Assembly: GCF_028768465.1 (NCBI RefSeq)
Contig: NZ_CP118225.1
Span: 1,593,001 to 1,657,000, forward strand
Source: Rhodopirellula sp. P2
GTDB taxonomy: Bacteria; Planctomycetota; Planctomycetia; Pirellulales; Pirellulaceae
Length of the DNA stretch: 64,000 nt
Direction: 5' to 3'
A program made the position numbers and the translations under genes. Below the pieces are notes generated by a model. The model was not told the origin of the DNA. It saw nothing but the letters and a program-made list of their open reading frames with translations, and did not search any database. Each line of letters opens with the position of its first letter. Within the stretch, counting starts at the first letter, position 1. This document shows, piece by piece, positions 42,770 through 57,707 of this stretch.

Positions 42770-45700
42770 TCAGTTTTGTTCCGCAGGCTCACCCAGCGTT
42801 TCGCGAATCGCGTCGGCCAATTGTTCGCCCAGTTTCGAGCCGCCACCGACGAAGACTCGTGTCACGGTGCCCTCCGCGTCGATCACCACGGTCTGCGGAA
42901 TCGCGTTGGCTTGGTAGCGTCCTGCCGCGACACCGTCGATGTCCATCACGACTTCGGGGCTGACCCCAATTCGGTCGAGTGTGTTGCGAATGTCTTCGGC
43001 GCTCTCCTGCAAATTGACGGCGACCAAGCGGACTTGTTCAGGATCAAATTCGGCAACGGCTTCCTCGATCACGGGCATGGCTTGCAGACAGGGGCCGCAC
43101 CAGGTCGCCCAGAAATCCAGGACCAGTGTGCGACCGGTTTGATCCGCGATTTGGAACGGTTCGCCGTCGAGTGTTTTGAGTTTGAAGTCCGGAGCAGGAT
43201 TTCCAACCAAGGGAGAGCGAGTGCCCGCCAGCGAGTCGTCCCCACCACCCGAGTCGCCGATGATGGGTTCAGGGGCGTTCACGAGCTGCCAAATGGCGTG
43301 AGGGTCGTCGGGGTTGTCACGGTCGTCGATTTGGCCGAAATACAGTTCTTCGCAGTTGGAGAGCGGCAGTCGGATCGGACCGAGGAAAAAGTTGTCACCG
43401 ATCAACGTTTGGTTGATGACACTCTCGGGAACCAAGGACAATCGGTTGCCGTCGTGCATCTTGCCTTGCACGGTCAGGACGGTGCCATCGCTCGTGTCTT
43501 CGTCAGCATTTTGTACTTCGGTATCAGCATCCGTGTCGGGGGTGTTCTCGTCTTCCGTTTCGAGTGGTGGTTTCAACCAAATGATTTGCGAGATGACGTT
43601 GCGAGGAATCGTGATCGTTTCCAACCGCGATTCCACTTTGGCAACTTCTTCCGTCAGGGTTACCAGTCGACAACGCATCATGTCGCCGTTGTTGGCGATC
43701 AAGAGGTGGGTTGGCGGGCTGTTCTTGCGATTCCGCGGAACGGTGAGCAATCGCTGGCGTTCCTGTTCATCGATGACCGGTTCCGAACCGGTCGAGTTCA
43801 GATGAATCGCACGGATTTGTTCACGCGGGAGCTTGGTTTTTTGGGTCATCCCTGATTCGAAGGTGACCTCGTTTTCGTCGATCGAAATCACTTTGCCAGG
43901 AATGACTTCTCCCGTCTTCAGGTAGATCGGTTTTCCGGCGACGGTCTTTAAGTTCGCTTGGGGATCAAAGACTTTGCTGAACACATTCCAAACCCCAGGT
44001 TTTGCGGCTGGCCGGATGGGGGCGGCCTGGCGATTTTGAGCCTGCACCACACCGTTTTGTTTTTGGACCGCTTGACGAATTTTTTGAAGCCTTTCGATAC
44101 GAAGCTCCGTCGCGGATTTCGTGGTTTCCACTTTGGGACGCAGGATCAATTTTCCGGTGACATTGGGGCGCATGACCGATGCGATGGTGCCAGCCGGTTC
44201 GAACCGAAGTGCCGTTGGTTGGCTGTCGGGTTCGGCGTCGAGCAGACGTCCATGGAGCCGTGTGCCTTCAAGTTCCAATCGCATTTGTCCCCGCAGGGAA
44301 GGGACGTTCGGTTTCGATGCTTGGAAGTCAATTGTATCGATGCTGGAAATCGGGATCGTGACTTCGCCTTGGGTCGCCTCAGCGATCACATGCAAAGACT
44401 GTTGATCGATTCGTTGCAGGCGACCGCTCAATCGCATTCCATCAAAAGTTCGGATTTGCAATTGATCGAGACTGGGCAGTTCGGGCTCGGAAGCTTCATC
44501 CGAGTCGGCTGGATCGAGGTCCACCACCATGATTTGATCGGCATGGATGGAGCGTTCTTCTTCGCCTGCTTGGAACTGCCACAAGTTATCCTCGATGCCT
44601 TTCCAGATGCCTTGGAATGCATCGCCGTTGGTCAGGTGGACCGTCGTTTTGACGCCGTTTTCGTCGGTGTTCTCGGACGCTTCAGCGGTGTCATTGGATT
44701 TTGGAGCTGGATCGGTGGCGTGCAGGACTTGCAAGGAACGGATACGAAGGGTGCCGTCGATGTTGCGGAAGTAGATGCCGGTCTGAGTAATCCGTGGCGT
44801 TTTGATGGGCAGCGTGTACTGCGTCAGTGTTTCGCCACGCATCGATTCGATCATCACGTGACGGTTGGCTTGGTCAATCTTCAAAGTCACCTGCAGCCGG
44901 TTGCCGAGTTCTTTGAGTTTCGCGATGGATTCCACCCCAGCCAGCGAACCATCCTCCCAAACGGCGACGACGTCATCGTCCCAAACTTCAATGTGGAATG
45001 CGTCGGCCCAAGTGTTTTCAGGGGATTCAGGATCGACGCCGATGGCGATGACAAAGTTCGGTTTTCCTTCCCAGGCGATGTCCAGTTCGACGCGAGCCAA
45101 TCGCGGAAGCTGGAGGTCGCGGAAAATGGTGGCCAATGCGGTGCTGGTTTCCAACGTGCCCTGGGAATCCACCCAGCTTTCAAGTCGACCGTTCGACTCC
45201 CAATCATCGCGTGATCCGGGGCCTTGGAAGACAACGGCGCGGCTATCATCCCAGCGAAAAATTTGGCGAACCTTGGCGAGAGGCAGTTCCGATGTTTCGC
45301 CTCCGGTGAGGGAAACCGTCAATGGATCGCCAACCTGGACGATATCGCCGAACAGACGATCGCCATTGAGCAGTTCCAGTGCGAACCGACCTTGGGTGGC
45401 GGTGATTTCCGAGGGAGGCGGAAAGGTGGCCGATGCCAAGGACGCGAAGGGGAAGGAAAACGGTGTGGCAAACCCCTGGTTTTGCCAGTTCACAACCGTT
45501 GGGGATTCTCCTTCGCTGATTCGTGATGCTGCGAAATTCCCTAGCACATGATCGCCATTGTTCAGTCGCAGGATCCCGGAAAAGTCATTCGCGAACAATG
45601 GAGGGGTGCACAACGCCCGGTTCAGGAAACCAAAGGCGCCCACTAGCAAGATCAGGGACACCCTCGCCGCGGTGGAAGTCCTTCGGTGCCTTTGGGAGGG

Positions 45701-45880
45701 ACGGTCCGCTTCGGGCCGGGGAGTGCGATTGCTGAGTTCAGGCTCGACCCTCCCCTCGCTTCGCTCGACCCTCCCAGTGGGAGGGTGAAGGGTGAAAACG
45801 CCGATGTTTGCAAGGTCTGAACACCGGATGAGCTTGGCGAATGGTCGTTTCATGCGATCGTGATTTTCCAAGGTTTTCAT
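42770..45880 (-). CDS. Multi-module secreted protein: Sm-like repeats, LamG-like domain, C-terminal thioredoxin (TlpA type)
   Basis: 1036 aa. The ATG at 45880 overlaps the upstream stop by 4 bases (ATGA). A second in-frame ATG at 45853 is possible. The signal/anchor (RVSLILLVGAFGFLNRALC) only begins near residue 70 because a palindromic repeat is read in frame before it (HPPTGRVERSEGRVEPE). Then come short beta modules of one pattern, NGD..x.G...(I/L)P...(I)..I.F, about eight of them (such as NGDRLFGDIVQVGDPLTVSL; NGDAFQGIWKGIEDN; FDGMRLSGRLQRIDQQSLHV; KTGEVIPGKVISIDENEVTF). A LamG/DUF1080-like jelly-roll sits between the second and third (GPGSRDDWESNGRLESWVDS to GIYFRNIDGTLRIRSLQVL). The C-terminus is a TlpA-like thioredoxin with WCGPC at 927-931. 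Last gene of the operon; probably a periplasmic thiol-redox protein. Confidence 0.85.
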   Translation of the reverse strand: MKTLENHDRMKRPFAKLIRCSDLANIGVFTLHPPTGRVERSEGRVEPELSNRTPRPEADRPSQRHRRTSTAARVSLILLVGAFGFLNRALCTPPLFANDFSGILRLNNGDHVLGNFAASRISEGESPTVVNWQNQGFATPFSFPFASLASATFPPPSEITATQGRFALELLNGDRLFGDIVQVGDPLTVSLTGGETSELPLAKVRQIFRWDDSRAVVFQGPGSRDDWESNGRLESWVDSQGTLETSTALATIFRDLQLPRLARVELDIAWEGKPNFVIAIGVDPESPENTWADAFHIEVWDDDVVAVWEDGSLAGVESIAKLKELGNRLQVTLKIDQANRHVMIESMRGETLTQYTLPIKTPRITQTGIYFRNIDGTLRIRSLQVLHATDPAPKSNDTAEASENTDENGVKTTVHLTNGDAFQGIWKGIEDNLWQFQAGEEERSIHADQIMVVDLDPADSDEASEPELPSLDQLQIRTFDGMRLSGRLQRIDQQSLHVIAEATQGEVTIPISSIDTIDFQASKPNVPSLRGQMRLELEGTRLHGRLLDAEPDSQPTALRFEPAGTIASVMRPNVTGKLILRPKVETTKSATELRIERLQKIRQAVQKQNGVVQAQNRQAAPIRPAAKPGVWNVFSKVFDPQANLKTVAGKPIYLKTGEVIPGKVISIDENEVTFESGMTQKTKLPREQIRAIHLNSTGSEPVIDEQERQRLLTVPRNRKNSPPTHLLIANNGDMMRCRLVTLTEEVAKVESRLETITIPRNVISQIIWLKPPLETEDENTPDTDADTEVQNADEDTSDGTVLTVQGKMHDGNRLSLVPESVINQTLIGDNFFLGPIRLPLSNCEELYFGQIDDRDNPDDPHAIWQLVNAPEPIIGDSGGGDDSLAGTRSPLVGNPAPDFKLKTLDGEPFQIADQTGRTLVLDFWATWCGPCLQAMPVIEEAVAEFDPEQVRLVAVNLQESAEDIRNTLDRIGVSPEVVMDIDGVAAGRYQANAIPQTVVIDAEGTVTRVFVGGGSKLGEQLADAIRETLGEPAEQN
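45746..45787. repeat. Palindromic repeat inside the 5' end of the thioredoxin-protein gene
   Basis: GACCCTCCCCTCGCTTCGCT followed by CGACCCTCCCAGTGGGAGGGTG. It is nearly the same as the intergenic copy at 40461-40500 and related to the inverted repeats around 57136 and 57612. Here it lies in the translated region ahead of the signal peptide. Confidence 0.75.
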
Positions 45881-46944
45881 CGTTCGTAGATCGGCAAGAA
45901 GCGGAAGTTGAGCGCCATGGCCAACAGCGACAACGAGGTTTCAACGGTGGGGCCAAAGTTGCCCGAGAAGCTTCCATCGTCGCTCTGGCTGGCCTTGAGT
46001 TGACGGATCAAATCCTTGTTCCATTTTTCCCAGGCATCGACATCGCCTTGGAACAACGCCTGGGCTTGGTAGTAGTTTCCGTAGCTTTTGTAGGACCCAC
46101 CGGAGGTGTCCATTTGGTTGGTCAACGCGGTCAAGGTGGTTTTGAATTCGGGCATGTCTTTTCGGCGTGAGACGGCATAGACCAAGCACCCAATCGAAAT
46201 TCGCGGTGTCGAATTGTCAAACCCACCCAGTCCAGCGTAAGCGACTTGTCCGGACGAGCTGGTCATGGATTTGAAATAGGCCACACCGCGGTCGATCGCT
46301 TCATCGGGAACCTTGACGCCCGCGTTGCGGGCCGCCAGCAATCCGACCATGACAGCGCCACTGACGGAGGTGTCGGCGTCTTTGGCATCCGCGCCGTATC
46401 GCCAGCCCCCGTAGGAGTTCTTCTTTTGCGAGGTCACTGCGCCGCGAACGGCGAGTTCCAGGGCTTCGCCGAGCGAGCGATCCAGTTTCTTGCCGCCGGT
46501 GGTGAGCAGGCGTTCGTTGACCACACCGTAGGCTTCGGCGAGAGCCAACATTGCGAAGCCGTGGTTGTACATGCTGGCGTGGCCGCCGGGGCCGCTGTTG
46601 CCGCCCAGGATGCCCGAGTTGGAATCTTGTGAGTTGACGATGCTGATCAACCCGCGGCGGATGTTGCTGCTGTAGATGCCGTAGTTGGGGTCCTCACCCG
46701 AGGCCAGGAACGTCATCACGGCCATGCCGGTCACGCCGGGGCCGGCGTAGGATCCGCCGGACCATTCGCCCGTCTCGGTTTGTGATTTGGCCAGATACTG
46801 AAGGCCTTTTTCGTAGATCTCTCGAACATCACGCGGGACCACATCGCCGAGTTGTGCGGTCGGGAATTGGGCTTGGGCGGGGGTTGAAAAGAATGTTCCG
46901 ATCATCAGCAAAGCGAGGATCGCGTTGGGGCTCATGGTCTTCAT
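45877..46944 (-). CDS. Squalene-cyclase/prenyltransferase-like alpha-toroid protein
   Basis: 355 aa with a signal peptide (MSPNAILALLMIGTFFSTPA, cleaved near AQA/QF). Repeats of the terpene-cyclase/prenyltransferase alpha-alpha toroid are visible: GLQYLAKSQTETGEWSGGSY, GLISIVNSQDSNSGILGGNS, HGFAMLALAEAYG, GAVTSQKKNSYGGWRYGAD, GVAYFKSMTSSSGQVAYAGL and LKASQSDDGSFSGNFGPTVE, i.e. QW-like motifs. No DxDD cyclase motif was found, so a non-catalytic or peptide-binding toroid, as in many secreted planctomycete proteins, is more likely than hopanoid synthesis. Both ends overlap their neighbours by 4 bases. Confidence 0.85.
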   Translation of the reverse strand: MKTMSPNAILALLMIGTFFSTPAQAQFPTAQLGDVVPRDVREIYEKGLQYLAKSQTETGEWSGGSYAGPGVTGMAVMTFLASGEDPNYGIYSSNIRRGLISIVNSQDSNSGILGGNSGPGGHASMYNHGFAMLALAEAYGVVNERLLTTGGKKLDRSLGEALELAVRGAVTSQKKNSYGGWRYGADAKDADTSVSGAVMVGLLAARNAGVKVPDEAIDRGVAYFKSMTSSSGQVAYAGLGGFDNSTPRISIGCLVYAVSRRKDMPEFKTTLTALTNQMDTSGGSYKSYGNYYQAQALFQGDVDAWEKWNKDLIRQLKASQSDDGSFSGNFGPTVETSLSLLAMALNFRFLPIYER

Positions 46945-47741
46945 TGGATCAGTCCCTGTTGCAGGAGCATCTGGCGAACGCCTTTGGCCCGTTCCGCGAG
47001 TCTCTCGACGATTTGGATTTGTTCTGGATCGAGAATGCGCTCAGCTTCCTTCTCTGTGATTTCGCCGATCCAGATGCTGAGCAGGTAGTGCTGCAACGCG
47101 ACTTGATTGTTGCCGGTTGGGAGTTCTTGGATCTGTTGGATTTTTTTCTGAAAGAGCTCATGCAGTTGCCGTTGTTGTTTAGCCGTCAGGGCTGCGCCAC
47201 GCCCCAGCGTGGCCAGGAACACTTTGCTGCTGCCTTCGAGTTTGGCACGGTACTGCTTGATTTCGAGCTCTTCCAATTCGCTGGCTTGGTCTTCGGTCAT
47301 CACGTATCGAGTGACCTTCTGAATCAGGGATCCATTGCCAAAAAGACCTTGGGTCAGTTCTTGCTGAAGTGGCGATGCCAGTTGGTAGGCTTCATTGATG
47401 TCTTGGTTGCCGTTCTTCTGTTCCATCTGGAGGAACTTTTCACGTGCGTCGTTGACTCGGTCAAAGAAGCGTTTGATGTCACCTTGGCCGGCGAGCCGGA
47501 GGGCGTCCTTTTGGCTCTCGGTCAGCGGAGTGGATTGTTCAATTCGGACGAACTGAAGTTCGATTTCCTTTTTGAGGCCGGTGCGACAGCGTGCTTCGTC
47601 TCGGCCATGTCGTTGAAAAATCCAACTGTCAAACTGGGGCAAGTCAATCTGGTTCTGAGCAACGCACCGAGTGGGAGCCATTCCGCCAAGTGACCCAAGC
47701 AGAATGGCAGCGAACAAACCAACCCATCCAAACGGTTTCAT
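46941..47741 (-). CDS. Small secreted helical protein with LTxxQ motifs, paralogue 1
   Basis: 266 aa. The ATG at 47741 is supported by AGGAG 9 bases upstream and a 4-base overlap with the upstream stop; the longer frame is rejected. Signal peptide MKPFGWVGLFAAILLGSLGG, cleaved near CVA/QN. The mature part is helical and charged with motifs LTESQKDALRL and LTAKQQRQLHELFQKKIQQI. This LTxxQ pattern recalls Spy/CpxP-type periplasmic proteins, and the adjacent 255-aa gene has the same motifs at similar positions. No family assigned. It overlaps its operon neighbours by 4 bases at each end. Confidence 0.8.
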   Translation of the reverse strand: MKPFGWVGLFAAILLGSLGGMAPTRCVAQNQIDLPQFDSWIFQRHGRDEARCRTGLKKEIELQFVRIEQSTPLTESQKDALRLAGQGDIKRFFDRVNDAREKFLQMEQKNGNQDINEAYQLASPLQQELTQGLFGNGSLIQKVTRYVMTEDQASELEELEIKQYRAKLEGSSKVFLATLGRGAALTAKQQRQLHELFQKKIQQIQELPTGNNQVALQHYLLSIWIGEITEKEAERILDPEQIQIVERLAERAKGVRQMLLQQGLIQ

Positions 47742-48505
47742 GGCAGCCACTCCTTTTCTAAGAAACGCTCTGGGGATTGGCCGATCATGACCCCCATGCT
47801 GACCTGCTGATGAGAGGCCCAGGCCGCTTGTTGATCGGAGTTGAGGACTTTTCGGAGCAGGTTGCTGGGGATGACCGGGACGAAGTTTGGGTTGTTGGCA
47901 TAATTGCCAATCCATTCCACATCGAGGTCCGACCATCCGGTTAGAAAGACCGTTCGAAGTTTTCGTTGCTGCACGTCGGTGAGAACCAACTTTGCATCCA
48001 AGAGAGTGACGAGGTAGTCCGTGGCGGCCTCGCGTTCGATCCGCTCTCGTTGAGAGGATTCTTGCTTGTACTTTTGGAATTGCTGCTCTGTTAACAGCAA
48101 CGGCAGGAAGTCCATCGTGTCGTCGCGGATTCGGCGATAGGGATTCGCTGCAAGCGTTTCACCATTGAGTCCATGAAATCGAGGTTGCTGGTTGACTCGA
48201 GCGTTGTTCGCCAGCAAGTCACCCATTTCATCAAACGCCTCTTGAGCCGACTCGACGATGGCCTGCATCTGTTCTTCGGTCGGTTTGCACACTCGGTGCA
48301 CGAACGACAATTCCGCATTCATCAGTGGCTTGAGGAATTCGGGTGGTTTGGGTTTCTCCTTCTTGGCTCGGACTTCTTTGGCTAACAAACGATTGAGGAC
48401 ATTGAATTCTTGGATCGCCTCATTCGTCAGTTCCTGTGATGAGACCGGACGCGCCATCAGTGCCATCAGACCGAGCAGTAGAAAGCTCCAGCGGCGGATG
48501 GACAT
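47738..48505 (-). CDS. Small secreted helical protein with LTxxQ-like motifs, paralogue 2
   Basis: 255 aa. The ATG at 48505 shares one base with the upstream stop (TGATG). Signal peptide MSIRRWSFLLLGLMALMARP, cleaved near VSS/QE. Motifs PTEEQMQAIVESAQEAFDEM and LTDVQQRKLRTVFLTGWSDL match the layout of the downstream 266-aa protein (LTESQ..., LTAKQ...), so these look like tandem paralogues. The Arg/Glu-rich middle (QESSQRERIEREAATDYLVT) is helical. No known family; a periplasmic role is inferred. Confidence 0.8.
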   Translation of the reverse strand: MSIRRWSFLLLGLMALMARPVSSQELTNEAIQEFNVLNRLLAKEVRAKKEKPKPPEFLKPLMNAELSFVHRVCKPTEEQMQAIVESAQEAFDEMGDLLANNARVNQQPRFHGLNGETLAANPYRRIRDDTMDFLPLLLTEQQFQKYKQESSQRERIEREAATDYLVTLLDAKLVLTDVQQRKLRTVFLTGWSDLDVEWIGNYANNPNFVPVIPSNLLRKVLNSDQQAAWASHQQVSMGVMIGQSPERFLEKEWLP

Positions 48506-51500
48506 CAGGATCCTCCCAGTCGGCTGAAGTATTGATCCAGTCCGCGACGGAATTCTTCGGGCAGTTCTGCGCCGGTTTCACCGGTCGATTGCGTGACGTT
48601 CTTGTTCTCTCGCACTTCCTTATCGTTCTTGCTTTTGCCCAGCAACGCCAAAGCGGAATCCGCACTGTTGCCGCCTCCGGTTCCGCCACCAGGCGAACCG
48701 CCACCGCCTCCGCCACCCTTCGGGTTGATGCGTTTGGAACGCAGAATCAATTCAATGGCTTCGGTCTCGGCGGCAATGGCTTGGGAACCCGTGTTGGGTT
48801 GCTTCAAGATCGAAGTGGCATCGGTCATCACTGAGTCGACAGCGGCCAGCATCTTGAGCTCTTTCCCGAAGTGCTTGGTCGCGTCGGGCAATTCGCGAAT
48901 GCGGCCAATCACGTCCACGACGCGTTCGTTGATCTCCGTTTGAGTCTTGGCCAGCGTTGCCGCGGTGGCTTCGTGGTCCTTGGATTCAACGGCCTCCTTG
49001 GCTTGTTCGGCCACGCGAGTTTCGTCGCGTAGGTTGACTTCGGATTCCAAAATTTGCATCACGTCGCGAACGATCGACGGTGGCAGGCTTTCCGGTGACT
49101 TGCCGCCGGGGCAACTGCCGTTGCAGGCGGGGTCGACCAAGTTTTCTGCCCAGCGGTCCAGGGAATCGGACCAGAACTCACACTGCGCGACGGACATGCC
49201 CTGTTGGTCCTTGATCGCCGCGGAAAGTTGACGCAAGCCACCGATCACATCACTGGATTTCATTTCGTCCAAGGTGACTTTGAACTGGGCGAAACGTCGT
49301 CGTTCAAAGTAGGCCTCCATGTCGTCCATGATGTAGGAGATTTGTTCCGTGCTTTCGTCCTCGGTGGTTTGTAGTGAGGTGAAGACCTCTTTGACTTTCT
49401 CGTCGATGCGTGGGGCACGTTGACCAAATGCCGGTTCGAGATGGTTGGTCAATTGCTTGGCGACCAAGTTCTGTTTGCGTGAGGCGGCCTTCAATCGTTT
49501 GACCAACGTGCTGCCTTCGAGATTCGCCAGGATGAGATTCAGTTCGTCGGCGATCTTGTCGAACTCGTCGAGCAATTCTTTCTGCTCGGTGATCGCTTGC
49601 GTCATCTTCAAAGGCTCGTCCTTCTTCGGTTTGTCATCCGAAGGTTGGCTCTTGCCCATCACTGTGGTGGTTGGCAAACGCAACGCAGGATTGCTGGGTT
49701 TCTTGGGACCACCGGGGGAGCCTTTGCCTTCATCGGGTGAGTTGGCCGAGGATTCCATGTCGACCAACTGCGGTGCCGCACGTGGTTTGGGGCCAGGGTG
49801 CTTGGACGCTTGAGCACCGGGGCCTGGGCCGCCCGCACGACTTTGTCCCGCTTGGGGACCGCCGGGACTCTTGGGACCAGGTTTGGATGCAATTTTCGGT
49901 GCCTCTTGTGCCGCGTCATCCAGCAAATTCGCGACGCTGGGCATCCGGTTGTCGGAGAGGTCCTGCAAAACCTGCAGCATCTCCGCCCAACGTTCCAGGT
50001 GGCCGACACCGATTTCGGGATTCTTCGAGGCCGCCAAAACCAATTGGTCACCCGCTTGGCCGAGACGTTCCAGTCGACGGCCGTTGGAGCGTTCGGCAGA
50101 TGCCTGGCGTTCGATGTCGCGTTGGTGTTGCTCGAGTTCGATTTCGTCAGCGGACAACGCTCGAAGTTGTTTGTTCTTCTCGTGCAGTTGGCGTTCGCGG
50201 TCTCGAACGTCGAGAGCTTGGCGATGCCATTTGCTCAGTTGTTCGGTCATCCAAATCGCATGCTGGTCCGGGGTGAGGACGTACAGCAAAAAAGGCGGCG
50301 ACAACACACGGGCCCGCTCGGGCAGGTAGTCCTCCGCCCAAACTTGCAGTTCGATCGGTTGAGCGGGAATCCCCAGCGACTTGGCTGAAAACGTTCCCAT
50401 CGCTTCCAGACTGGCGGCGGTCGGATCGCCTGCGGCGAGCGCACGTTCGCCTTCGGCGGGTTCTTCGACCGCACCGACGTCCATGCCTTTCCACTGGATG
50501 CCAACGCGGCGGATGCCGAAGTCATCGTTGGCGCGGACTTGGAACGTCAGTGTTTCCGAATCCAACACGACGGCTTGGCGTTCCAGTCCATCGCAGATCA
50601 ACGTGGGGGCTTCGTCGTCAATTGCCTCGATCGACAGCGTGAACGGTTCGCGTCCCGTCAGTCCCATCTGATCACGCCATTGGAACTGCAGTGTTTCGGT
50701 CTCAGTGGCTTGCACGGAGTCGCTGGCCAATTGCGGTCCATCGACGGGCCGCGATTGTTCGTTGACTTTCCCATCGGCCAATTCGCGATTGGCGATCGCG
50801 GTCACGACGGCTTGGCTTCCGCGTACAACGGTCAGCGAACCGCCTCGTGTGTCGATTTGTTTGGGTTCAGGCTGGCCGAGGTATTCGGGCAAGTTCACGT
50901 CCGCGACGATCTTGGAAAGTTCAGGACGCAGCGTGGGTTTCAGTTTCACCGATTGCTTCACATCCCCAACGGTGAGCGACATTGGATGTTCGCTGAGTTG
51001 GGGCGGCAGGGCAAAGGCGTACTGCCCATCGCGAAGGGTGGCTTGGATTGGTTTCTGTTGCCCAATGTGCAGTTCGGCGGACTCGGGTTGCCAGCGAGAA
51101 TCGGCGCTCAAGGCAACCGGCAGCACAACCGGTTCGCCGTGTGGAATGTAGACGTCGCTCGCCAACGCATCGATCCGAGTGAACGTGTATCGCGGCGTGG
51201 AACCCCACGGTGCCAGCAATCGCGTCATCGCGTTACCGGTCGCAGCGGGGTAGGTCACCGCCAAGGTTCCGATGGCCAGCACGGTGGCGGCGGCCAAACC
51301 GGTCCAGGCTTTGTACCAGGAGTTCGGGGCGGCGCCGCGAAAGTCTTTGCCTGCCGCATCGTCGGCGACCTGCACCATGGCAGCTTGGCAAAGCTGGGGT
51401 GAACGAGCTTGTTCGGAGGCGTTCTGAGTCAGCTCGATCACGCCCAGCAAACGGTCACCGATCGCGGGCATCTTTTCGCTCAGCAATCTGGCGAGCGGTT

Positions 51501-51789
51501 CGAGGGCTTGGTGCTTGTAGACCCATTTGTAGATCGCCCACGGCACGATGCCGATCAATGCGAATCCGCCGATCCAGAGCAGGCCCCGGAGAATTGCCGG
51601 TGTGTCGGTGAAGCGATCCATCCCGTAGACGAGCAGAAACGCCAGCCCGATTCCCGCGACCACGATCGCGACGGCTTCGGTCAGTTTGATTTGCCAAACT
51701 CGCCGCCGGTAAGTCAGCAATTGCTGCTTGAGCGAATCGGGAATGCGCAAGTTTGTTTGCGCGGGTGAATGGTTGTCTGCAATCTTCAT
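48505..51789 (-). CDS. DUF4175-like large membrane protein
   Basis: 1094 aa. The ATG at 51789 overlaps the upstream stop (ATGA). Three membrane segments: about residues 40-60 (AVAIVVAGIGLAFLLVYG), 70-90 (LLWIGGFALIGIVPWAIYKW) and 160-180 (LAAATVLAIGTLAVTYPAAT). A long beta-rich extracytoplasmic region follows, then coiled-coil stretches (LHEKNKQLRALSADEIELEQ, HQRDIERQA), a Pro/Gly-rich linker (PGPKSPGGPQAGQSRAGGPG) and a Gly-rich C-terminal part ending ELPEEFRRGLDQYFSRLGG, the closing motif I associate with DUF4175-like proteins in MoxR/BatA clusters. Function unknown; probably the structural hub of the cluster. Confidence 0.8.
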   Translation of the reverse strand: MKIADNHSPAQTNLRIPDSLKQQLLTYRRRVWQIKLTEAVAIVVAGIGLAFLLVYGMDRFTDTPAILRGLLWIGGFALIGIVPWAIYKWVYKHQALEPLARLLSEKMPAIGDRLLGVIELTQNASEQARSPQLCQAAMVQVADDAAGKDFRGAAPNSWYKAWTGLAAATVLAIGTLAVTYPAATGNAMTRLLAPWGSTPRYTFTRIDALASDVYIPHGEPVVLPVALSADSRWQPESAELHIGQQKPIQATLRDGQYAFALPPQLSEHPMSLTVGDVKQSVKLKPTLRPELSKIVADVNLPEYLGQPEPKQIDTRGGSLTVVRGSQAVVTAIANRELADGKVNEQSRPVDGPQLASDSVQATETETLQFQWRDQMGLTGREPFTLSIEAIDDEAPTLICDGLERQAVVLDSETLTFQVRANDDFGIRRVGIQWKGMDVGAVEEPAEGERALAAGDPTAASLEAMGTFSAKSLGIPAQPIELQVWAEDYLPERARVLSPPFLLYVLTPDQHAIWMTEQLSKWHRQALDVRDRERQLHEKNKQLRALSADEIELEQHQRDIERQASAERSNGRRLERLGQAGDQLVLAASKNPEIGVGHLERWAEMLQVLQDLSDNRMPSVANLLDDAAQEAPKIASKPGPKSPGGPQAGQSRAGGPGPGAQASKHPGPKPRAAPQLVDMESSANSPDEGKGSPGGPKKPSNPALRLPTTTVMGKSQPSDDKPKKDEPLKMTQAITEQKELLDEFDKIADELNLILANLEGSTLVKRLKAASRKQNLVAKQLTNHLEPAFGQRAPRIDEKVKEVFTSLQTTEDESTEQISYIMDDMEAYFERRRFAQFKVTLDEMKSSDVIGGLRQLSAAIKDQQGMSVAQCEFWSDSLDRWAENLVDPACNGSCPGGKSPESLPPSIVRDVMQILESEVNLRDETRVAEQAKEAVESKDHEATAATLAKTQTEINERVVDVIGRIRELPDATKHFGKELKMLAAVDSVMTDATSILKQPNTGSQAIAAETEAIELILRSKRINPKGGGGGGGSPGGGTGGGNSADSALALLGKSKNDKEVRENKNVTQSTGETGAELPEEFRRGLDQYFSRLGGS

Positions 51790-54050
51790 ATCAATCCGAC
51801 TCCCTTGCGACCGATCCAAAACAATGCCAACAGAGCGATGAATCCACCGACGATTGCCGGGTGACTCCAAAGTGCGATGCGACGAATCGAAGGCGGGCGG
51901 TCAGGCATGGCGGACAGCCACGCGATCACGTCTTCCACACGATCGACGGTGAAGACTTGCCCGTTGGTGACGCGAGCGATTTCTTGCATCACGTCCGGGC
52001 GAGCTGGTTTTCCAATTTGTTCCAAGGCGACTCCTTGAGCAAACACCGTGGTCTGCAAGGAGTCACCGGTTTGTTTGCAAAACAAAGTCAAGTTGTGTTC
52101 GCCGGGTTCTTCCGGTGTGAAGCGGCCCGCGAACGCCCCCCAGGCTTCGCCCGAGGATTGCAGTTGAATCGTTTGCGAACGGCCGGACGGAGCAACGATT
52201 TGCAACGTCACGTCGCCTTCGGAGAGCGGTTCGCCGCTGGCTTCCATCACGTTTGCGTTGACGCTGACCGTTTGGCGGACTTGCGGTTGTTCGGGCGAGT
52301 AATACAAACGCATCGTTTCGCCTTGGGCCATGTTCCGGCGATACGCCATCCAACGCACGACTTGGCCCCAGAACCGATAGTGGTACAAATCCTCGACGCC
52401 TTTTCGCCAACGCCAAGCACCATCGGTTCCCATGAACAGGACTTTGCCCGCTCCATAAGTCCGAGTGACCAGGAGCGGCAGGCGGCCGAAGCGGTTGCTG
52501 ACCTCTTGGTGAACCAGCAGCGTTTCCGATCCCGGTTTGGCGGCCAGCACGGGGGCGTACCACTGAAATCCAGGCAGGTTGCCCCAGACTTCCAGGTTGT
52601 CGTCGGCGGTGTCGGCGAGTTTCGTCAGCAAGCTGCGGCGACCGAGTTGCGTGAGTTCAAAGTGCTGCGCGGTCCGCGAACCCCAGCCACCAGGTTGGCC
52701 TTCGTCGAGCGTGACCGGCAACAGATCCTTCAGCGGTGTCTCTTGCAAGCTGAGCTGGCGGCCTTCCCAACCGGGGATGAAGACCAAACCGCTGGCTTGT
52801 TGTTCGACCAAACCATGCAACCACTCGCATTGTTCCATTGTCAGTTGATCGTCGTCCAAGCCAACGTCGCCGAGGAAGACGACGTCGTACTTCGACAGCT
52901 CTTCCTTTGTATCGGGGAAGGTTGCGATGTAATCGGAGTTGCCTCCCCCGCGAGCGTCCAAGCCCGGATGGAACAGCAAGCACGAAACCTCCACACCCGG
53001 ATCACGAGACAGTGCGTTTCGCAGATAACGGTATTCCCAGCGGGGAACCGATTCGATCACGAGCACGCGAAGTTTTTCTTCTCGAATGGAGATCGGCGCG
53101 GCGATCTCGTTGTTGTCGTTGAGCAGTTCGTTGGGATGTTTACTGATCGTCAGTGTCAGCGTTTCATCGCCGAGTTCTTCCGGTTCCCAATCGATCGAAT
53201 CGTTGGTGCGGCCCATCGCGGCAATGCGGATGTCCTTGGTGATCGTTTCGCCTTGGGAGGTGGTCATGGTGACCGTCGCGGCGTGGTCTCGTGGTAGCGA
53301 GCTTTCGATCGAAAAGGGGATCCGAACCTTTTTCCCGCCGATCGCAAAGGTGGGCACATCGAAGCTGAGCAGTTCGACATCGGGCAAACGTTCTTCGCTG
53401 CCCACGGGAACGGTGAACACGGGAACGCCCATCGATCGCAGTCGGCCCGCCGCACGCACGGGCGCGTCGCCTTGGTTCCAGTCTCCGTCCGACGCCAACA
53501 CGACGCCGAGCAAATGTGGGTGCTTGCGGACGACATCCAGCAGTGGGCTGGAGAGGTCCGTGCCTTTCTCTTCGACGAACTCAGCGGTCTCACCAGGAGC
53601 AATTCCGGCGGGGTTGGAGATCGGGGTGATGCGATCGGGGGCGCTGGGTTCTGGCTTGGTTTCGGCGAACGGTTCGATGACCACTTCGGCCCGCGATTCG
53701 AGCGACTTCCAAGCTTCGATTTGCGTCAGCGAGGCGATTGCTTGTTCGCGGGTTTGAGGTTCCGAATTCACCACGTCCCGCGTTTGCATGCTGCCGGAAT
53801 TGTCGTACAGCACCGCGACGACGGGTTTGTCATCGGGAACGTATTGTTCGACCCATTCAGGACCGCCGAGCAACATCGCGGCGATCACGACGACAACCAA
53901 ACGCAACGCTTCCAGCAACACCGTCGCTTTGCGGAAGTGGTTTCGCCAGCACGCCAGGAAGCCCAACACGAGCGTCAACGTGATTGCCAGCACCGCGATG
54001 GCGATCGTCCAAGGCGTCCAGGCAAACGAGAGCGAGTAGGTTTCGATCAT
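51786..54050 (-). CDS. VWA/glutamine-amidotransferase-like membrane protein
   Basis: 754 aa. The ATG at 54050 lies in a 4-base overlap with the BatA-like gene. Two N-terminal membrane helices (about 13-35 and 46-63) precede a VWA domain with MIDAS motif DNSGS (83-87). Residues 195-230 continue that fold (LLGVVLASDGDWNQGDAPVR). Then comes a beta domain and a class-I-GATase-like region (VLVIESVPRWEYRYLRNALS; YDVVFLGDVGLDDDQLTMEQ; GLVFIPGWEG), which lacks a clear catalytic triad. A C-terminal helix (PAIVGGFIALLALFWIGRKG) anchors the end. Such proteins occur next to BatA in planctomycete MoxR clusters. Role unknown. Confidence 0.88.
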   Translation of the reverse strand: MIETYSLSFAWTPWTIAIAVLAITLTLVLGFLACWRNHFRKATVLLEALRLVVVVIAAMLLGGPEWVEQYVPDDKPVVAVLYDNSGSMQTRDVVNSEPQTREQAIASLTQIEAWKSLESRAEVVIEPFAETKPEPSAPDRITPISNPAGIAPGETAEFVEEKGTDLSSPLLDVVRKHPHLLGVVLASDGDWNQGDAPVRAAGRLRSMGVPVFTVPVGSEERLPDVELLSFDVPTFAIGGKKVRIPFSIESSLPRDHAATVTMTTSQGETITKDIRIAAMGRTNDSIDWEPEELGDETLTLTISKHPNELLNDNNEIAAPISIREEKLRVLVIESVPRWEYRYLRNALSRDPGVEVSCLLFHPGLDARGGGNSDYIATFPDTKEELSKYDVVFLGDVGLDDDQLTMEQCEWLHGLVEQQASGLVFIPGWEGRQLSLQETPLKDLLPVTLDEGQPGGWGSRTAQHFELTQLGRRSLLTKLADTADDNLEVWGNLPGFQWYAPVLAAKPGSETLLVHQEVSNRFGRLPLLVTRTYGAGKVLFMGTDGAWRWRKGVEDLYHYRFWGQVVRWMAYRRNMAQGETMRLYYSPEQPQVRQTVSVNANVMEASGEPLSEGDVTLQIVAPSGRSQTIQLQSSGEAWGAFAGRFTPEEPGEHNLTLFCKQTGDSLQTTVFAQGVALEQIGKPARPDVMQEIARVTNGQVFTVDRVEDVIAWLSAMPDRPPSIRRIALWSHPAIVGGFIALLALFWIGRKGVGLI

Positions 54051-56104
54051 GCCGTGGCACCTCCGACGGATGGGGAGGCTGGTTGGGCGGATTGCCGCGG
54101 CAAACACAGGATGGCTTCGCCGACCATCGCGATCAGCATCAAGATCAGGAACGCTCGCCAGACTTCATCGACCAAGGAATTGGACTCGCCCGCGGTTTGG
54201 TTGACGCGTTCCAACACCAAACCTTGAAAGAGGTCGTCGATTTGGGATTCTTCCAGTGTGTCGGTGGCGTCTTCTCCGGCGGATCGATTGATCGCGTTGA
54301 AGCGGTCACCATCGGCGTAGACCCCTGCGGTGAAAGCGTGTTCTGTTGAAAGCGAATCGTCCGGCCCTTGCAATCGTTTCCAACTCGCGGCTACTTCTGC
54401 ATCGACCGTTCCCGCATCCAAGCGACCTGTGTTGGCCAGCGACGCAGCACCGTCGACCAAGGCTCGCTGGATCATCACGTAAAGCACAACACCGTCCGAT
54501 GAAAGGGTCGAATCCTCTGCCGCCGGGGTCGTGCCACAAAAGTAAACGCCACCGCGAGGCGTGGGGACTCGGACCATCACCGGTTCGTCATTGGAGAGTT
54601 TGGCCAGCGGGGTGGTTTCACCGGACAGGGCCGCCAGACGATGCACCTTCAGTTTTCCAACCGGCAGGGACGCTCCCGCCAATGTCTTGCCGAGCAAGTC
54701 GGCTTCACCTCGCCAAGTCGCGATCGAGACGTCGTCTTTCAAGTCCGTCCAGGGAGAATACGACACGCCAAACAATTCCGCGTTGGGATCAGGATTGTCG
54801 GGCGGAAAGAAGATCACTCGGCCCCCGCGGTCCAGGAACGATTCCAAGCGTTTACGAAGTTCGGCGTTGGACGCGCCGGTGGGCAGTGGGGCTTGCCAAA
54901 GCAAGAGTGCGGTTTCATCCCAGGCGATCGATGGCACTTCGGCGGGCAGCAGGACTTCAGCGGAAGCCTCGATGTTTGGATCGGGAGTGATCTCGGCGGC
55001 CAATCGCAGCACGTTGGCAACGTCCTCGTTCGAGGACACCACCACGCTTTTTCGTGGCGGTGGTTCGTCAAAGACAAAGTAATACGTGTTGTCGGCGTTG
55101 TTCCCATCGGCGGGCAACGACACGTGACCCAGTCCGCTCACTTGTTCACGATCCAAGGGGACTCGCAAGTCCGTGAATTCACCCGAACCGGAATCAAGTG
55201 GCAGTTCAACAATCGATTCAGCTCCATCCAGATCCATGCGGATCGATGGCGCGGGTGCGTTCGCCGTGTCGCTGTTTTCAGAACCGCTTTGAAGTTTGCC
55301 CGACAGCATCAGCACACGTTCATCGCCTTCGGATCGCAGGACGATGTCGTCGATGCGGATCGCTCGGTTGGGTTGGTCCGTTCCCGCGACGGTCAACAGA
55401 CGGAACCGGACTCGGCGTCCGAATTGGGCGAGGGCTTCGCGAAGCGTGGGCCAACGTCCGTCTCGCGATTGCCAATCGTGTTCGCGAGCATCCGAGCAAA
55501 TCCAAACATCGGTTTGTCCCATCGAGTTGGCTTGGATGGTGTCGAGTGCCGCCAGCATCATCGCAGGGATGTCTGCCGATGCATCCGACGGGCCCGTTTG
55601 CGGGAGGTCCAGCAGTTCTTCGGGAGACGCCAGTTCTCGCGCGGGGGATGATTCGGCCGCCGCGACCGTGTTGCTGTCGATCAGCAGGACTCGGCCGGCA
55701 CCGAGTGTTTGCAATGTTTCAGCGATTTGAGCCACACCGGCTTGCAGTTTGGTTCGCGAGTCACCCGCCGCGTTGGCGTTCATCGAGGGCGATCGATCCA
55801 GCAGCACGATCGTGTTCGCGGACGAGCCGCCTGAGAGTGAGCCGACCAAACCGCCACCCAGCGAACCGCTGGCGAGTGGTCGTCCGATGGCAACGATCAA
55901 GGCCAACAGCACCAGGGTTCGCAAAGCCAGAATGGCCCACTGGCGAATGCGAGCGTAACCTCGATTCATTCGGTTTGCGGCCAGCAGGAACCTCATCGCG
56001 GCCCACTGCGTCGTTTGATAACGACGCTGGTTGATCAAGTGGATCAGGATCGGCAGCAAAGCGATCGGCAGGGCGAGCAGCATCCAAGGTTGGAGAAAGC
56101 TCAT
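54047..56104 (-). CDS. BatA-like VWA membrane protein
   Basis: 685 aa. The ATG at 56104 overlaps the DUF58 stop by 4 bases. The N-terminal BatA-type region is clear: a helix (PWMLLALPIALLPILIHLIN, 6-25), RRYQTTQWAAMRFLLAA, then a second helix (WAILALRTLVLLALIVAIGR, 56-75). The VWA domain begins at about residue 98 with MIDAS DRSPS (103-107). A later segment contains FLDRGGRVIFFPPDNPD, and the C-terminus is a membrane helix (AFLILMLIAMVGEAILCLP). BatA proteins work with MoxR ATPases and DUF58 proteins in envelope stress or the assembly of metalloenzymes and surface complexes. Confidence 0.92.
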   Translation of the reverse strand: MSFLQPWMLLALPIALLPILIHLINQRRYQTTQWAAMRFLLAANRMNRGYARIRQWAILALRTLVLLALIVAIGRPLASGSLGGGLVGSLSGGSSANTIVLLDRSPSMNANAAGDSRTKLQAGVAQIAETLQTLGAGRVLLIDSNTVAAAESSPARELASPEELLDLPQTGPSDASADIPAMMLAALDTIQANSMGQTDVWICSDAREHDWQSRDGRWPTLREALAQFGRRVRFRLLTVAGTDQPNRAIRIDDIVLRSEGDERVLMLSGKLQSGSENSDTANAPAPSIRMDLDGAESIVELPLDSGSGEFTDLRVPLDREQVSGLGHVSLPADGNNADNTYYFVFDEPPPRKSVVVSSNEDVANVLRLAAEITPDPNIEASAEVLLPAEVPSIAWDETALLLWQAPLPTGASNAELRKRLESFLDRGGRVIFFPPDNPDPNAELFGVSYSPWTDLKDDVSIATWRGEADLLGKTLAGASLPVGKLKVHRLAALSGETTPLAKLSNDEPVMVRVPTPRGGVYFCGTTPAAEDSTLSSDGVVLYVMIQRALVDGAASLANTGRLDAGTVDAEVAASWKRLQGPDDSLSTEHAFTAGVYADGDRFNAINRSAGEDATDTLEESQIDDLFQGLVLERVNQTAGESNSLVDEVWRAFLILMLIAMVGEAILCLPRQSAQPASPSVGGATA

Positions 56105-57012
56105 CGTCCCCCCTTTGCCATCGCACGTCGGGTCAAGAAGTTCGTCAGCACTTCGGGGTACGGTTGATCAATGCTGACGCGGTGGTAGTCGACGCCGGAG
56201 GACACCACGATCCGTTGCAGTTGATCCAAGTAACTTTGCAAGGCATCGTGATACCGATCCGCAATCTCGCTTGGTTCCGCGAAGATGGCCGTGCCTCCTT
56301 CCATGTCGAGGAAGCGGGTCGGCCGGGAAAATTCGAAGTTCAGTTCCATCGGATCGAGCAGATGGAACAGTGACAGATCGTGTTTGCGGAATCGCAAGTG
56401 TTCAAAGCAGCTTCGCAGTTGATCCGGATCGACGAAGAAGTCCGAGATCACGATCACCATCGCGGCTTGGCGGGTTGTCTCGGCCAATTCATGCAAGACA
56501 TCGGCGAGATGGGTTTCGCCTTGGCCGCGAGTTTCTTCGAGGGCATCGAAGATGGTTTTGAGGTGAGCCGGGTTGCGGCGTGGAGGCAGGTGACCGGTGA
56601 TGCCATTGCTGACACACGACAGTCCCACGGCGTCGCCCTGTTGCACGGCCAAGTAGCCAATCGCCGCGGCGATCCGACGAGCGTACTGCAATTTATTGAG
56701 TTCACCGGAGCCATATTCCATTGAGCCGCTGGTGTCCAAAACCAGTTGCAATCGCAGGTTGGTGTCCGCTTCGAACTCTTTGACGTAGTAGCGATCGCTG
56801 CGACCATGGGCTCGCCAGTCCAGTCGCCTGAGGTCATCGCCGGGCACGTACTTCCGGTACTCGGCGAACTCCACACTGGCGCCCCGCATGGGGCTGGTGT
56901 GCCGACCAGAAACATTGCCTCGCATTGGCCGGCGCGCAAACAAAGGCAACCCCGACAAGCCTGCCAAGACAGTCGGTTCCAGAAATTCGCGAGGAGTGTG
57001 TTGTTCGGACAA
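56101..57012 (-). CDS. DUF58 (VWA-like) protein
   Basis: 303 aa. The family motif YVPGDDLRRLDWRAHGR lies at 55-71, followed by KEFEAD and the MIDAS motif DTSGS (93-97). There is no signal peptide or membrane helix, as is usual for short DUF58 proteins. It is the first gene of the eight-gene overlapping operon and normally follows a MoxR gene directly. Here a 540-bp inverted-repeat cassette and a minisatellite lie between it and MoxR at 57708. Its own start may therefore depend on read-through or a new promoter. Confidence 0.93.
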   Translation of the reverse strand: MSEQHTPREFLEPTVLAGLSGLPLFARRPMRGNVSGRHTSPMRGASVEFAEYRKYVPGDDLRRLDWRAHGRSDRYYVKEFEADTNLRLQLVLDTSGSMEYGSGELNKLQYARRIAAAIGYLAVQQGDAVGLSCVSNGITGHLPPRRNPAHLKTIFDALEETRGQGETHLADVLHELAETTRQAAMVIVISDFFVDPDQLRSCFEHLRFRKHDLSLFHLLDPMELNFEFSRPTRFLDMEGGTAIFAEPSEIADRYHDALQSYLDQLQRIVVSSGVDYHRVSIDQPYPEVLTNFLTRRAMAKGGR

Positions 57013-57024
57013 AGCGTTGGAAGT

Positions 57025-57115
57025 GAGTTGCGAGTTGCGAGTTGCGAGTTGCGAGTTGCTAGAGGCTAGAGGCTAGAGGCTAGAGGCTAGAGGCTAGAGG
57101 CTAGAAGCTAGAAGC
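57025..57115. repeat. Two adjoining 7-bp minisatellites
   Basis: GAGTTGC is repeated five times (57025-57059), directly followed by TAGAGGC six times and its variant TAGAAGC twice (57060-57115). It lies between the DUF58 start and the inverted-repeat cassette. Being seven bases long, changes in copy number would alter spacing and, if translated, the frame. Confidence 0.95.
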
Positions 57116-57135
57116 TAAGAGTTGTCTCCCCCAAG

Positions 57136-57198
57136 GAGCGAAGCGACGCGTCGTCCCCTCTCCCCCGGCTTCCGGGGGAGAGGGCAAGGGTGAGGGGG
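57136..57198. repeat. Left inverted repeat of the DUF559 cassette
   Basis: About 63 bases. It contains an internal hairpin CTCTCCCCCGG-CTT-CCGGGGGAGAG and the tail GGCAAGGGTGAGGGGG. Its inner 46 bases are exactly inverted at 57612-57675; the outer part (GAGCG.AGCGACGCG) differs by a few bases and one indel. Confidence 0.9.
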
Positions 57199-57215
57199 CA
57201 GATTCCAAAACACCA

Positions 57216-57584
57216 TCATTCATGACTTTTCCATTCCTCCCCCATCGCCCGCAGAATCGCGACACCAACCGCTTCAGTGTTCTCCAAGACATCTGTGTTT
57301 CGAAAACGAATCACGGTCCATCCTTCGCGGTTCAATCGAGCTGTTCGGTTCATGTCTTGTTGCTCTTGATGTTCGTGGTAGTCGCCATCGAGTTCAACGA
57401 TCAATCGTTTCTCGACGCAGGCGAAGTCAGCGATGAAAGGCGGGATTGGAAACTGGCGTCGGAATTTGTGTCCGTTGAGTCGACGGTTGCGGAGGAGTGT
57501 CCAGACGAGTGATTCGGGCTTGGTTTGGTGGGTGCGAAGTTCGCGTGCGTTTTGGGTGAATTGAGGTGGTTGGCGGATTGGCAT
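57216..57584 (-). CDS. DUF559 family endonuclease-like protein
   Basis: 122 aa from the ATG at 57584, the usual size for DUF559; upstream in-frame codons read the inverted repeat. Motifs: ARELRTHQTKPESLVW (Glu 24), LNGHKFRRQFPI, FIADFACVEKRLIVELDGDYHEHQ (Asp 53, Glu 64, Asp 66) and GWTVIRFRNTDVL. The layout matches Vsr-like/PD-(D/E)xK nucleases, but activity is not established for the family. It lies wholly inside the cassette bounded by the repeats at 57136-57198 and 57612-57675 and separates MoxR from DUF58, so it looks like an insertion. Confidence 0.88.
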   Translation of the reverse strand: MPIRQPPQFTQNARELRTHQTKPESLVWTLLRNRRLNGHKFRRQFPIPPFIADFACVEKRLIVELDGDYHEHQEQQDMNRTARLNREGWTVIRFRNTDVLENTEAVGVAILRAMGEEWKSHE

Positions 57585-57611
57585 GGTTGGCTTTGAGACT
57601 TGGGTTGGATT

Positions 57612-57675
57612 CCCCCTCACCCTTGCCCTCTCCCCCGGAAGCCGGGGGAGAGGGGACATCGCGTCGCTGACGCTC
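57612..57675. repeat. Right inverted repeat of the DUF559 cassette
   Basis: Inverted copy of 57136-57198, with the inner 46 bases identical. It lies 32 bases from the MoxR stop. No target-site duplication was recognised at the outer ends. Confidence 0.9.
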
Positions 57676-57707
57676 CCTCTTTTTTACTAACAGCTAACAG
57701 CTACTAC

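Follow-up and report, generated by a model that had tools for sequence, protein, structure and literature searches.

A stretch of 64,000 nucleotides from Rhodopirellula sp. P2 (contig NZ_CP118225.1, positions 1,593,001 to 1,657,000; here called the window) contains, on its minus strand, a cluster of nine genes: a MoxR-type ATPase (g0), a DUF58 protein (g1), two membrane proteins (g2 and g3), the protein g4, two probably secreted relatives (g5 and g6), a toroid-type protein (g7), and a thioredoxin protein (g8). The main finding is that g4 represents a new selenocysteine (Sec)/Cys protein family, in which UGA is almost certainly read as Sec in about one-quarter of the sampled homologues. The best explanation of the whole, to which a probability of about 0.6 may be given, is that the cluster specifies an ATP-driven machine of the inner membrane and periplasm, probably for maturation or repair of the envelope and resembling that of the Bat (Bacteroides aerotolerance) operon, in which the Sec/Cys loop of g4 would be recharged by g8.

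Selenocysteine in the g4 family

Homologues of g4 share a loop motif, DRWAE-x-LV-x-P-x-C-x-G-x-C-PG, with two Cys columns, and the window's own copy is a Cys form (C889, C893). A whole-genome search revealed one or two in-frame TGAs within g4 in 20 Pirellulaceae genomes. Sixteen of these genomes have 21 TGAs between them, each of which coincides with one of the motif's two Cys columns, and the TGAs of the other four genomes are placed likewise. After the removal of duplicates and of matches short of the motif (L221-L224 are not included), the distinct g4 set comprises 128 homologues: 32 Sec forms, four of which have two Sec, 74 Cys forms, and 22 with neither residue. Parsimony requires 13 changes between Sec and non-Sec. 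In the 32 Sec forms, identity to the window is 48.7% downstream of the TGA and 40.3% upstream; because the stretch after the TGA is conserved as well as the stretch before it, it is almost certainly translated. One Sec form comes from a genome that is a single contig and 99% complete (G055).

Interior TGAs are a property of g4 and not of its neighbors. Within the aligned parts, and with duplicate contigs kept in the counts, 39 of 158 matched g4 stretches contain them, always at the motif, compared with 0/90 for MoxR, 0/100 for DUF58, 1/122 for g3, 0/114 for g5, 2/125 for g6, 0/130 for g7, and 0/122 for g8; the three found with the BatA profile (3/223) are all the natural end of g3. Sec in other genes of the operon was consequently rejected. 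One g3, that of L043, looks broken, and one matched g4 stretch (G139:C55:11591-14230) has a TAG inside it.

The bacterial Sec insertion sequence (SECIS) has been modeled (PMC13188914) as a loop of 3-9 nt with G in the first two places, on a stem of at least 4 bp that lies 16-37 nt from the UGA, with a minimum free energy of <=-7.5. The hairpin predicted in g4 agrees with this published model. Its loop, AGUUU, is present in 31 of 31 distinct DNA segments from Sec forms versus 14 of 90 non-Sec homologues, which are not bound to these codons, and in each of the 20 Pirellulaceae genomes with a Sec form the hairpin accompanies a motif TGA. All of the first four stem pairs can form in 28/31 Sec segments versus 1/90 others. 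Furthermore, the loop lies 18-36 nt downstream of each of 36 UGAs (both being counted where there are two), and 35 of the 36 UGA-to-hairpin stretches fold at <=-7.5 kcal/mol. In genes with two Sec, a single hairpin is within range of both UGAs. The fourth pair, which joins the third positions of two codons, covaries (C-G, U-A, G-C, U-G; 9 double-change cells, 27 distinct rows), with a score that was reached by none of 500 shuffles. The corresponding features of g4 in the window are as follows:

48505..51789, minus strand: g4, Sec/Cys redox family, with three transmembrane (TM) segments, immunoglobulin (Ig)-like beta domains, and a helical bundle with a CxxxC loop
49111..49125, minus strand: codons C889-N-G-S-C893, the columns where relatives have UGA (Sec)
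49072..49104, minus strand: SLPP-codon stretch, site of the AGUUU-loop hairpin in Sec relatives (position derived; not needed by the window's Cys gene)

The machinery for Sec insertion is found together with the Sec form. Among the 20 Sec-form genomes, tRNA-Sec (>60 bits) was detected in 20, SelB in 19, SelA in 17, and SelD in 18, and the genomes that miss a part are assemblies 82-87% complete. In the 48 non-Sec g4 genomes, a count that leaves out G068 (partial g4), there are only 10 with tRNA-Sec and nine with SelB (Fisher's test against the Sec-form genomes, 4e-10 and 3e-9). Twelve non-Sec control genomes yielded SelA once (273.7 bits, with a cut-off of 267.9) and SelD not at all. The selD gene itself contains a TGA in nine matches from eight Sec-form genomes (G081, G022, G027, G070, G004, G016, G044, and G063); one TGA in each match fits UGA decoding in those genomes.

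Neither Pfam nor NCBIfam gives a family for g4 at E<=0.01 in 18 of 18 homologues. The earlier note had labeled g4 as DUF4175-like (PF13779), an identity that the Pfam profile searches of these homologues do not support; for six of them, DUF4175 is unlisted at E<=10. The AlphaFold2 (AF2) model of g4 (predicted local distance difference test, pLDDT, 81.5) begins with N-terminal helices that include the three TM segments, and continues with Ig-like strands (residues 212-505) and then long helices; a disordered linker (635-724) comes next, and after it a helical bundle (728-1020), in which C889 and C893 sit on a loop between helices 863-884 and 904-929. By the positive-inside rule, the domains of g4, like the VWA domains of g2 and g3, would be periplasmic. 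Foldseek returned 85 matches for g4 at E<=0.001, and the best 50 of the 85 are mostly tandem Ig arrays with low TM-scores; complement and macroglobulin are among the matches listed, and no link of g4 and g7 to macroglobulin is claimed. A search of PDB sequences gave one weak match, to a collagen adhesin (E 0.0012). Some g4 loops hold four Cys (L127-L131, L146, and L162), as in ACCGKCPGCK, and these could bind metal.

The thioredoxin site of g8

Residues 893-1013 of g8 match ResA (E 4.6e-19). Scoring was confined to homologues with a complete g8. Its WCxPC is retained by 74 of 74 whose g4 motif includes one or more Cys or Sec versus 5 of 19 whose motif has none (Fisher p=8e-13); a further 35 homologues have no scorable g8. 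Thus, the CxxC is degenerate or absent in 14 of the 93 scored homologues, and a g8 without the thioredoxin still keeps its conserved repeat core. On the g4 tree, the thiol changes eight times and the thioredoxin site five times, and all five clades without the thioredoxin lie inside Cys-less clades. The same pattern is seen within genomes that carry two copies of the operon. In G036, one copy (L022) has Cys and an intact thioredoxin, while the other (L079) has neither; in G134, a copy with two Sec (L069) has an intact thioredoxin and a copy with no thiol (L073) a degenerate one.

Since the g8 site is kept with a g4 thiol or selenol and mostly lost without one, a partnership of the two proteins is most likely, and g8 and g4 are probably partners in electron transfer. 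A thiol-redox theme had been suggested for the cluster in the earlier note on the basis of g8. That theme is real, and stronger than proposed, because g4 itself carries a redox motif; the thioredoxin, however, is not obligatory, as the 14 losses among 93 indicate.

Gene order and conservation of the operon

Eight minus-strand open reading frames (ORFs) had been described at 42770-57012, with seven overlaps of 1 or 4 bases, and each is present exactly so: ATGA at 56101/56104, 54047/54050, 51786/51789, 47738/47741, 46941/46944, and 45877/45880, and TGATG at 48505. What had been missed is the first gene of the operon, moxR, at 57708-58748. In addition to g4, the features of the region, in a genome of 7.29 Mb on one contig, are:

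57708..58748, minus strand: g0, MoxR-type AAA+ ATPase (AAA_3, 209 bits; Walker A kept in 46/46 orthologue rows)
57013..57707, no strand: insert between MoxR and DUF58 (DUF559 ORF 57216-57659, inverted repeats of ~64 bp)
56101..57012, minus strand: g1, DUF58 protein (147 bits), VWA with the metal ion-dependent adhesion site (MIDAS) DxSxS in 50/51 rows
54047..56104, minus strand: g2, BatA/two_anch membrane protein (PF07584, 65.5 bits; TIGR02226, 93.2 bits), VWA-like MIDAS in 61/65 rows, three TM segments
51786..54050, minus strand: g3, membrane protein, VWA-like MIDAS in 62/66 rows, weak GATase1-like match, three TM segments
47738..48505, minus strand: g5, probably secreted protein, relative of g6, no Pfam family
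46941..47741, minus strand: g6, probably secreted all-helical protein (AF2 pLDDT 90.9)
45877..46944, minus strand: g7, probably secreted alpha/alpha-toroid-type protein (SQHop_cyclase_C, 28.6 bits), C-terminus LPIYER
42770..45880, minus strand: g8, repeat region and C-terminal ResA/TlpA-type thioredoxin with WCGPC

Among the domain labels proposed earlier, DUF58, BatA/two_anch, the ResA/TlpA-type thioredoxin, and a short match of squalene-hopene-cyclase type were borne out, whereas the VWA/GATase assignment of g3 is weak or missing by Pfam; the DxSxS of its MIDAS is nevertheless retained in all but four of the orthologue rows. No TM segments were found in g1, which would place it in the cytoplasm. 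For g5 and g6, described in the earlier note as LTxxQ paralogues, there is no Pfam match for LTxxQ/CpxP-Spy, and Foldseek gave no PDB match at E<=0.001 for g6. The profile match of g7 is to squalene-hopene cyclases, and a relationship to toroid proteins is likely from its sequence. The catalytic motif of squalene-hopene cyclase is DxDD. It is missing from g7, in which a similar conserved stretch is DADTSVSG or a close variant (16/16 homologues); the C-terminal LPIYER (45877-45897) is invariant in 16 of 16. A search of the window with Rfam yielded nothing at gathering scores, and a tRNA search of the window found none.

It had also been argued that such overlaps imply a complex of fixed stoichiometry. 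This does not hold up, as the junctions vary among orthologue loci, and g4 is missing downstream at 13 fetched g3 loci. Even when the longest possible ORF is allowed, the next gene begins beyond the stop codon in 32 of 45 loci at g3-g4, 12 of 23 at g4-g5, 20 of 39 at g7-g8, and 14 of 49 at g1-g2. Because the overlaps, unlike the gene order, are not conserved, they alone are no proof of fixed stoichiometry. In the window, furthermore, the g7/g8 overlap may not mark the true start of g8, since a hydrophobic, signal-peptide-like stretch begins only at about residue 68 and in-frame GTG codons are located at 45661 and 45643.

The gene order moxR-DUF58-BatA-g3-g4-(g5,g6)-g7-g8 is, by contrast with the overlaps, conserved over many planctomycete genera. 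Within a sample of 149 Pirellulaceae genomes (orthologue thresholds 1e-100 for g3, 1e-60 for g4, and 1e-90 for g7), g3 is present in 69, g4 in 69, and g7 in 68. All three are missing from 78 genomes, among them a 99% complete member of the same genus as the window (G141); the nearest relative in the set, G130, has a g3 that is 97% identical to that of the window. The earlier note reasoned that relatives with only the first four genes would set the last four apart. What is found is that all three markers occur together in 65 of the 71 genomes that carry one or more of them, which ties the last four genes to the first four. The six exceptions are three assemblies that are 72-86% complete (G034, G050, and G063) and three that are 98-99% complete but lie in 240-520 contigs (G033, G046, and G068), with the genes of G046 and G068 on short contigs. 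Among non-duplicate loci that extend 7.5 kb or more to each side of g4, 61 of 70 have the upper half joined and g8 downstream; these loci were drawn for holding g3 or g4 and do not give a genome-wide rate. Some genomes split the operon after g3. Of the 13 fetched g3 loci that lack g4 downstream, 12 are in genomes where g4 sits elsewhere, mostly near g7, and in G046 only g7 was found. The operon is also present in Singulisphaera and Schlesneria. A scan of one genome per species gave 417 g4 relatives, and the best 80 of the 417, which were kept, include Singulisphaera acidiphila, Adhaeretor mobilis, Bythopirellula polymerisocia, Rhodopirellula europaea, and uncultured Schlesneria. On this comparative evidence, the cluster is a real and conserved nine-gene operon that acts as a single system.

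The position of moxR is best seen in other loci of the same genus (L018 and L020), where the MoxR-DUF58 gap is 1 bp; in the window species and its closest relative (L017), some 700-900 bp separate the two genes. Judged from this comparison, moxR is the first gene of the operon, split off here by the DUF559 insert. The DUF559 ORF (57216-57659) scores 131 bits, and pieces of the insert, which is flanked by the ~64-bp inverted repeats, match elsewhere in the genome (28 matches in total, including the insert itself and its own repeats). The insert has the appearance of a small element, mobile or repeat-flanked, by which the operon was broken after MoxR.

Two variations in gene content were also observed. 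Between g4 and g7, the number of detected g5/g6-like genes ranges from 0 to 8; Schlesneria and certain other genomes show tandem expansion (L127, L128, L129, L137, and L162). In addition, most of L080-L094 are paralogous clusters from the same family that combine MoxR, DUF58, and BatA with g3-, g4-, and g7-like genes, in gene orders that partly differ, but lack g5/g6 and, in most cases, g8; their composition suggests a wider group of such machines.

A putative envelope machine and its alternatives

The planctomycete operon shares with the Bat operon MoxR, DUF58, and BatA-type VWA membrane proteins with a MIDAS. It differs in that the Pfam families of BatC (TPR), BatD, and BatE (SH3/TPR) are absent from the nine proteins at E<=0.1 and in that it adds a Sec/Cys protein, a thioredoxin protein, a toroid, and helical proteins. 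A further functional relative, RL3499-RL3502 of Rhizobium, has four genes and is not known to include a redox part. Its MoxR belongs to the MRP group and lies in a broadly conserved operon that is important for membrane integrity and morphology. ResA/TlpA oxidoreductases resemble the C-terminus of g8, but in g8 the thioredoxin follows a long repeat region within one protein and is linked to g4. MoxR/VWA chaperones for metal insertion, NorQD among them, likewise pair an AAA+ protein with VWA partners, but no metalloenzyme client is recognized by Pfam in the planctomycete operon. Paired Sec residues in short motifs also occur in the UxxU/UxxxxU selenoproteins TsoB and the Prx-like thiol:disulfide oxidoreductase; by the table descriptions in PMC13188914, these are rhodanese/DsbD-fusion or peroxiredoxin-like (PF00578) proteins, unlike g4 with its helical-bundle loop, TM anchor, and Ig-like domains.

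According to PMC3557215, Bat-type MoxR/VWA operons occur in several phyla and have been proposed since 1999 to reduce oxidized periplasmic proteins or to export reducing power, and bat mutants of Leptospira biflexa had no oxidative-stress defect. Given this redox proposal for Bat, the remodeling of protein complexes that published work ascribes to MoxR/VWA systems, and the role of RL3499 in membrane integrity, the operon is read as a Bat-like machine. In this model, MoxR and DUF58 in the cytoplasm would drive the membrane VWA proteins g2 and g3, which would in turn open or remodel client proteins of the envelope. The membrane-anchored, periplasmic g4 would reduce or mature these clients by means of its Sec/Cys loop and would be recharged by g8, while the helical g5 and g6 and the toroid g7 may be client-binding or scaffold parts. 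That the role of the operon in the envelope is a reductive one is put forward tentatively, by analogy. With the same reserve, this could be the first Bat-type MoxR-VWA machine with an identifiable redox center, one that is ATP-powered and capable of using selenium, reduces or matures envelope proteins, and has one SECIS serving a UxxxU pair.

Several observations weigh against this model or its parts. The covariation of the hairpin rests on a single pair, the sole one changed on both sides, and when the number of pairs changed on both sides is taken as a control, shuffles do as well as the real structure (486/500). Many Sec forms come from metagenome assemblies. Possession of the machinery does not compel a Sec form, as is seen in the 10 of 48 non-Sec g4 genomes with tRNA-Sec, and in the window's own genome none of SelA, SelD, SelB, and tRNA-Sec was detected above cut-off. 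The loop of 26 of the 32 Sec forms has one Sec and lacks Cys, and the loss of the thiol in 22 of 128 g4 proteins means that the redox chemistry is dispensable to the machine. As for the partnership with g8, Fisher's test ignores kinship, and placing the five losses on branches by length alone gives a far less extreme chance, ~0.002, that all of them would fall in Cys-less clades; furthermore, five Cys-less g4 proteins (four EVTKGGASPGG homologues, which form one clade, and L205) keep an intact thioredoxin in g8. Finally, Schlesneria has g4 forms with three or four Cys, a possible metal-binding arrangement.

This last point leads to the alternative that the loop of g4 is a metal site, with MoxR/VWA inserting metal into an envelope client and g4 serving as a metal relay. 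NorQD and CoxD are known MoxR/VWA metal inserters, and loops with three or four Cys, such as the ACCGKCPGCK cited above, would suit such a function. It is an unlikely explanation, however, because one Sec without another thiol in the loop, the usual Sec form, is a poor chelate, and because both the exchange of Sec for Cys and the loss of the thiol jointly with the thioredoxin suit redox use. A system for envelope structure or assembly, with g4 acting chiefly as a scaffold and its thiol loop as a regulatory redox sensor, would account for the g4 proteins without a loop thiol, for the conserved repeat core that outlives the thioredoxin in g8, and for the Ig-like and long helical architecture of g4. 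It too is rather unlikely, as the repeated use of Sec would be costly for a mere sensor and g4 is coupled to the thioredoxin.

The 13 g3 loci without g4 downstream, and the 12 genomes among them in which g4 is elsewhere, raise the question of whether g4-g8 is a system in its own right that happens to accompany a widespread MoxR module. Yet both halves are present together even when split, and the three markers are jointly missing from the 78 genomes, including G141, which makes such an arrangement very improbable. Less credible by far is the idea that errors, pseudogenes, or ordinary stop codons account for the in-frame TGAs. The prevalence of metagenome assemblies among the sources would favor it, but the TGAs occur only at Cys columns, together with a SECIS hairpin, the Sec machinery, and conservation beyond the TGA, and one of them is in the 99% complete single contig of G055. 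The preferred reading therefore remains that of a Bat-like machine with a Sec/Cys loop in g4.

The g4 family is apparently uncatalogued. It matches no row in a 2026 table of 119 selenoprotein families, all of whose rows were compared (PMC13188914), and at the title and abstract level no literature on it was found; candidate table S9 of PMC4807772, a source that reports selenoproteins for a Rhodopirellula (P2) and for P1, might list g4 earlier. In PMC12013277, the terms looked for do not occur. ORF calling in this analysis cut the Sec-form g4 short at the UGA, and as ordinary gene calling stops there, annotation is apt to present about one-quarter of the sampled g4 homologues as truncated genes. 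The family adds a selenoprotein of unusual build, in which a membrane anchor, Ig-like domains, and a helical bundle are combined with up to two Sec. To our knowledge, there has been no redox residue in Bat-type operons that could be tested. A Sec/Cys loop with a probable thioredoxin partner, inside a Bat-type machine and in several planctomycete families, would make the idea of exported reducing power directly testable.

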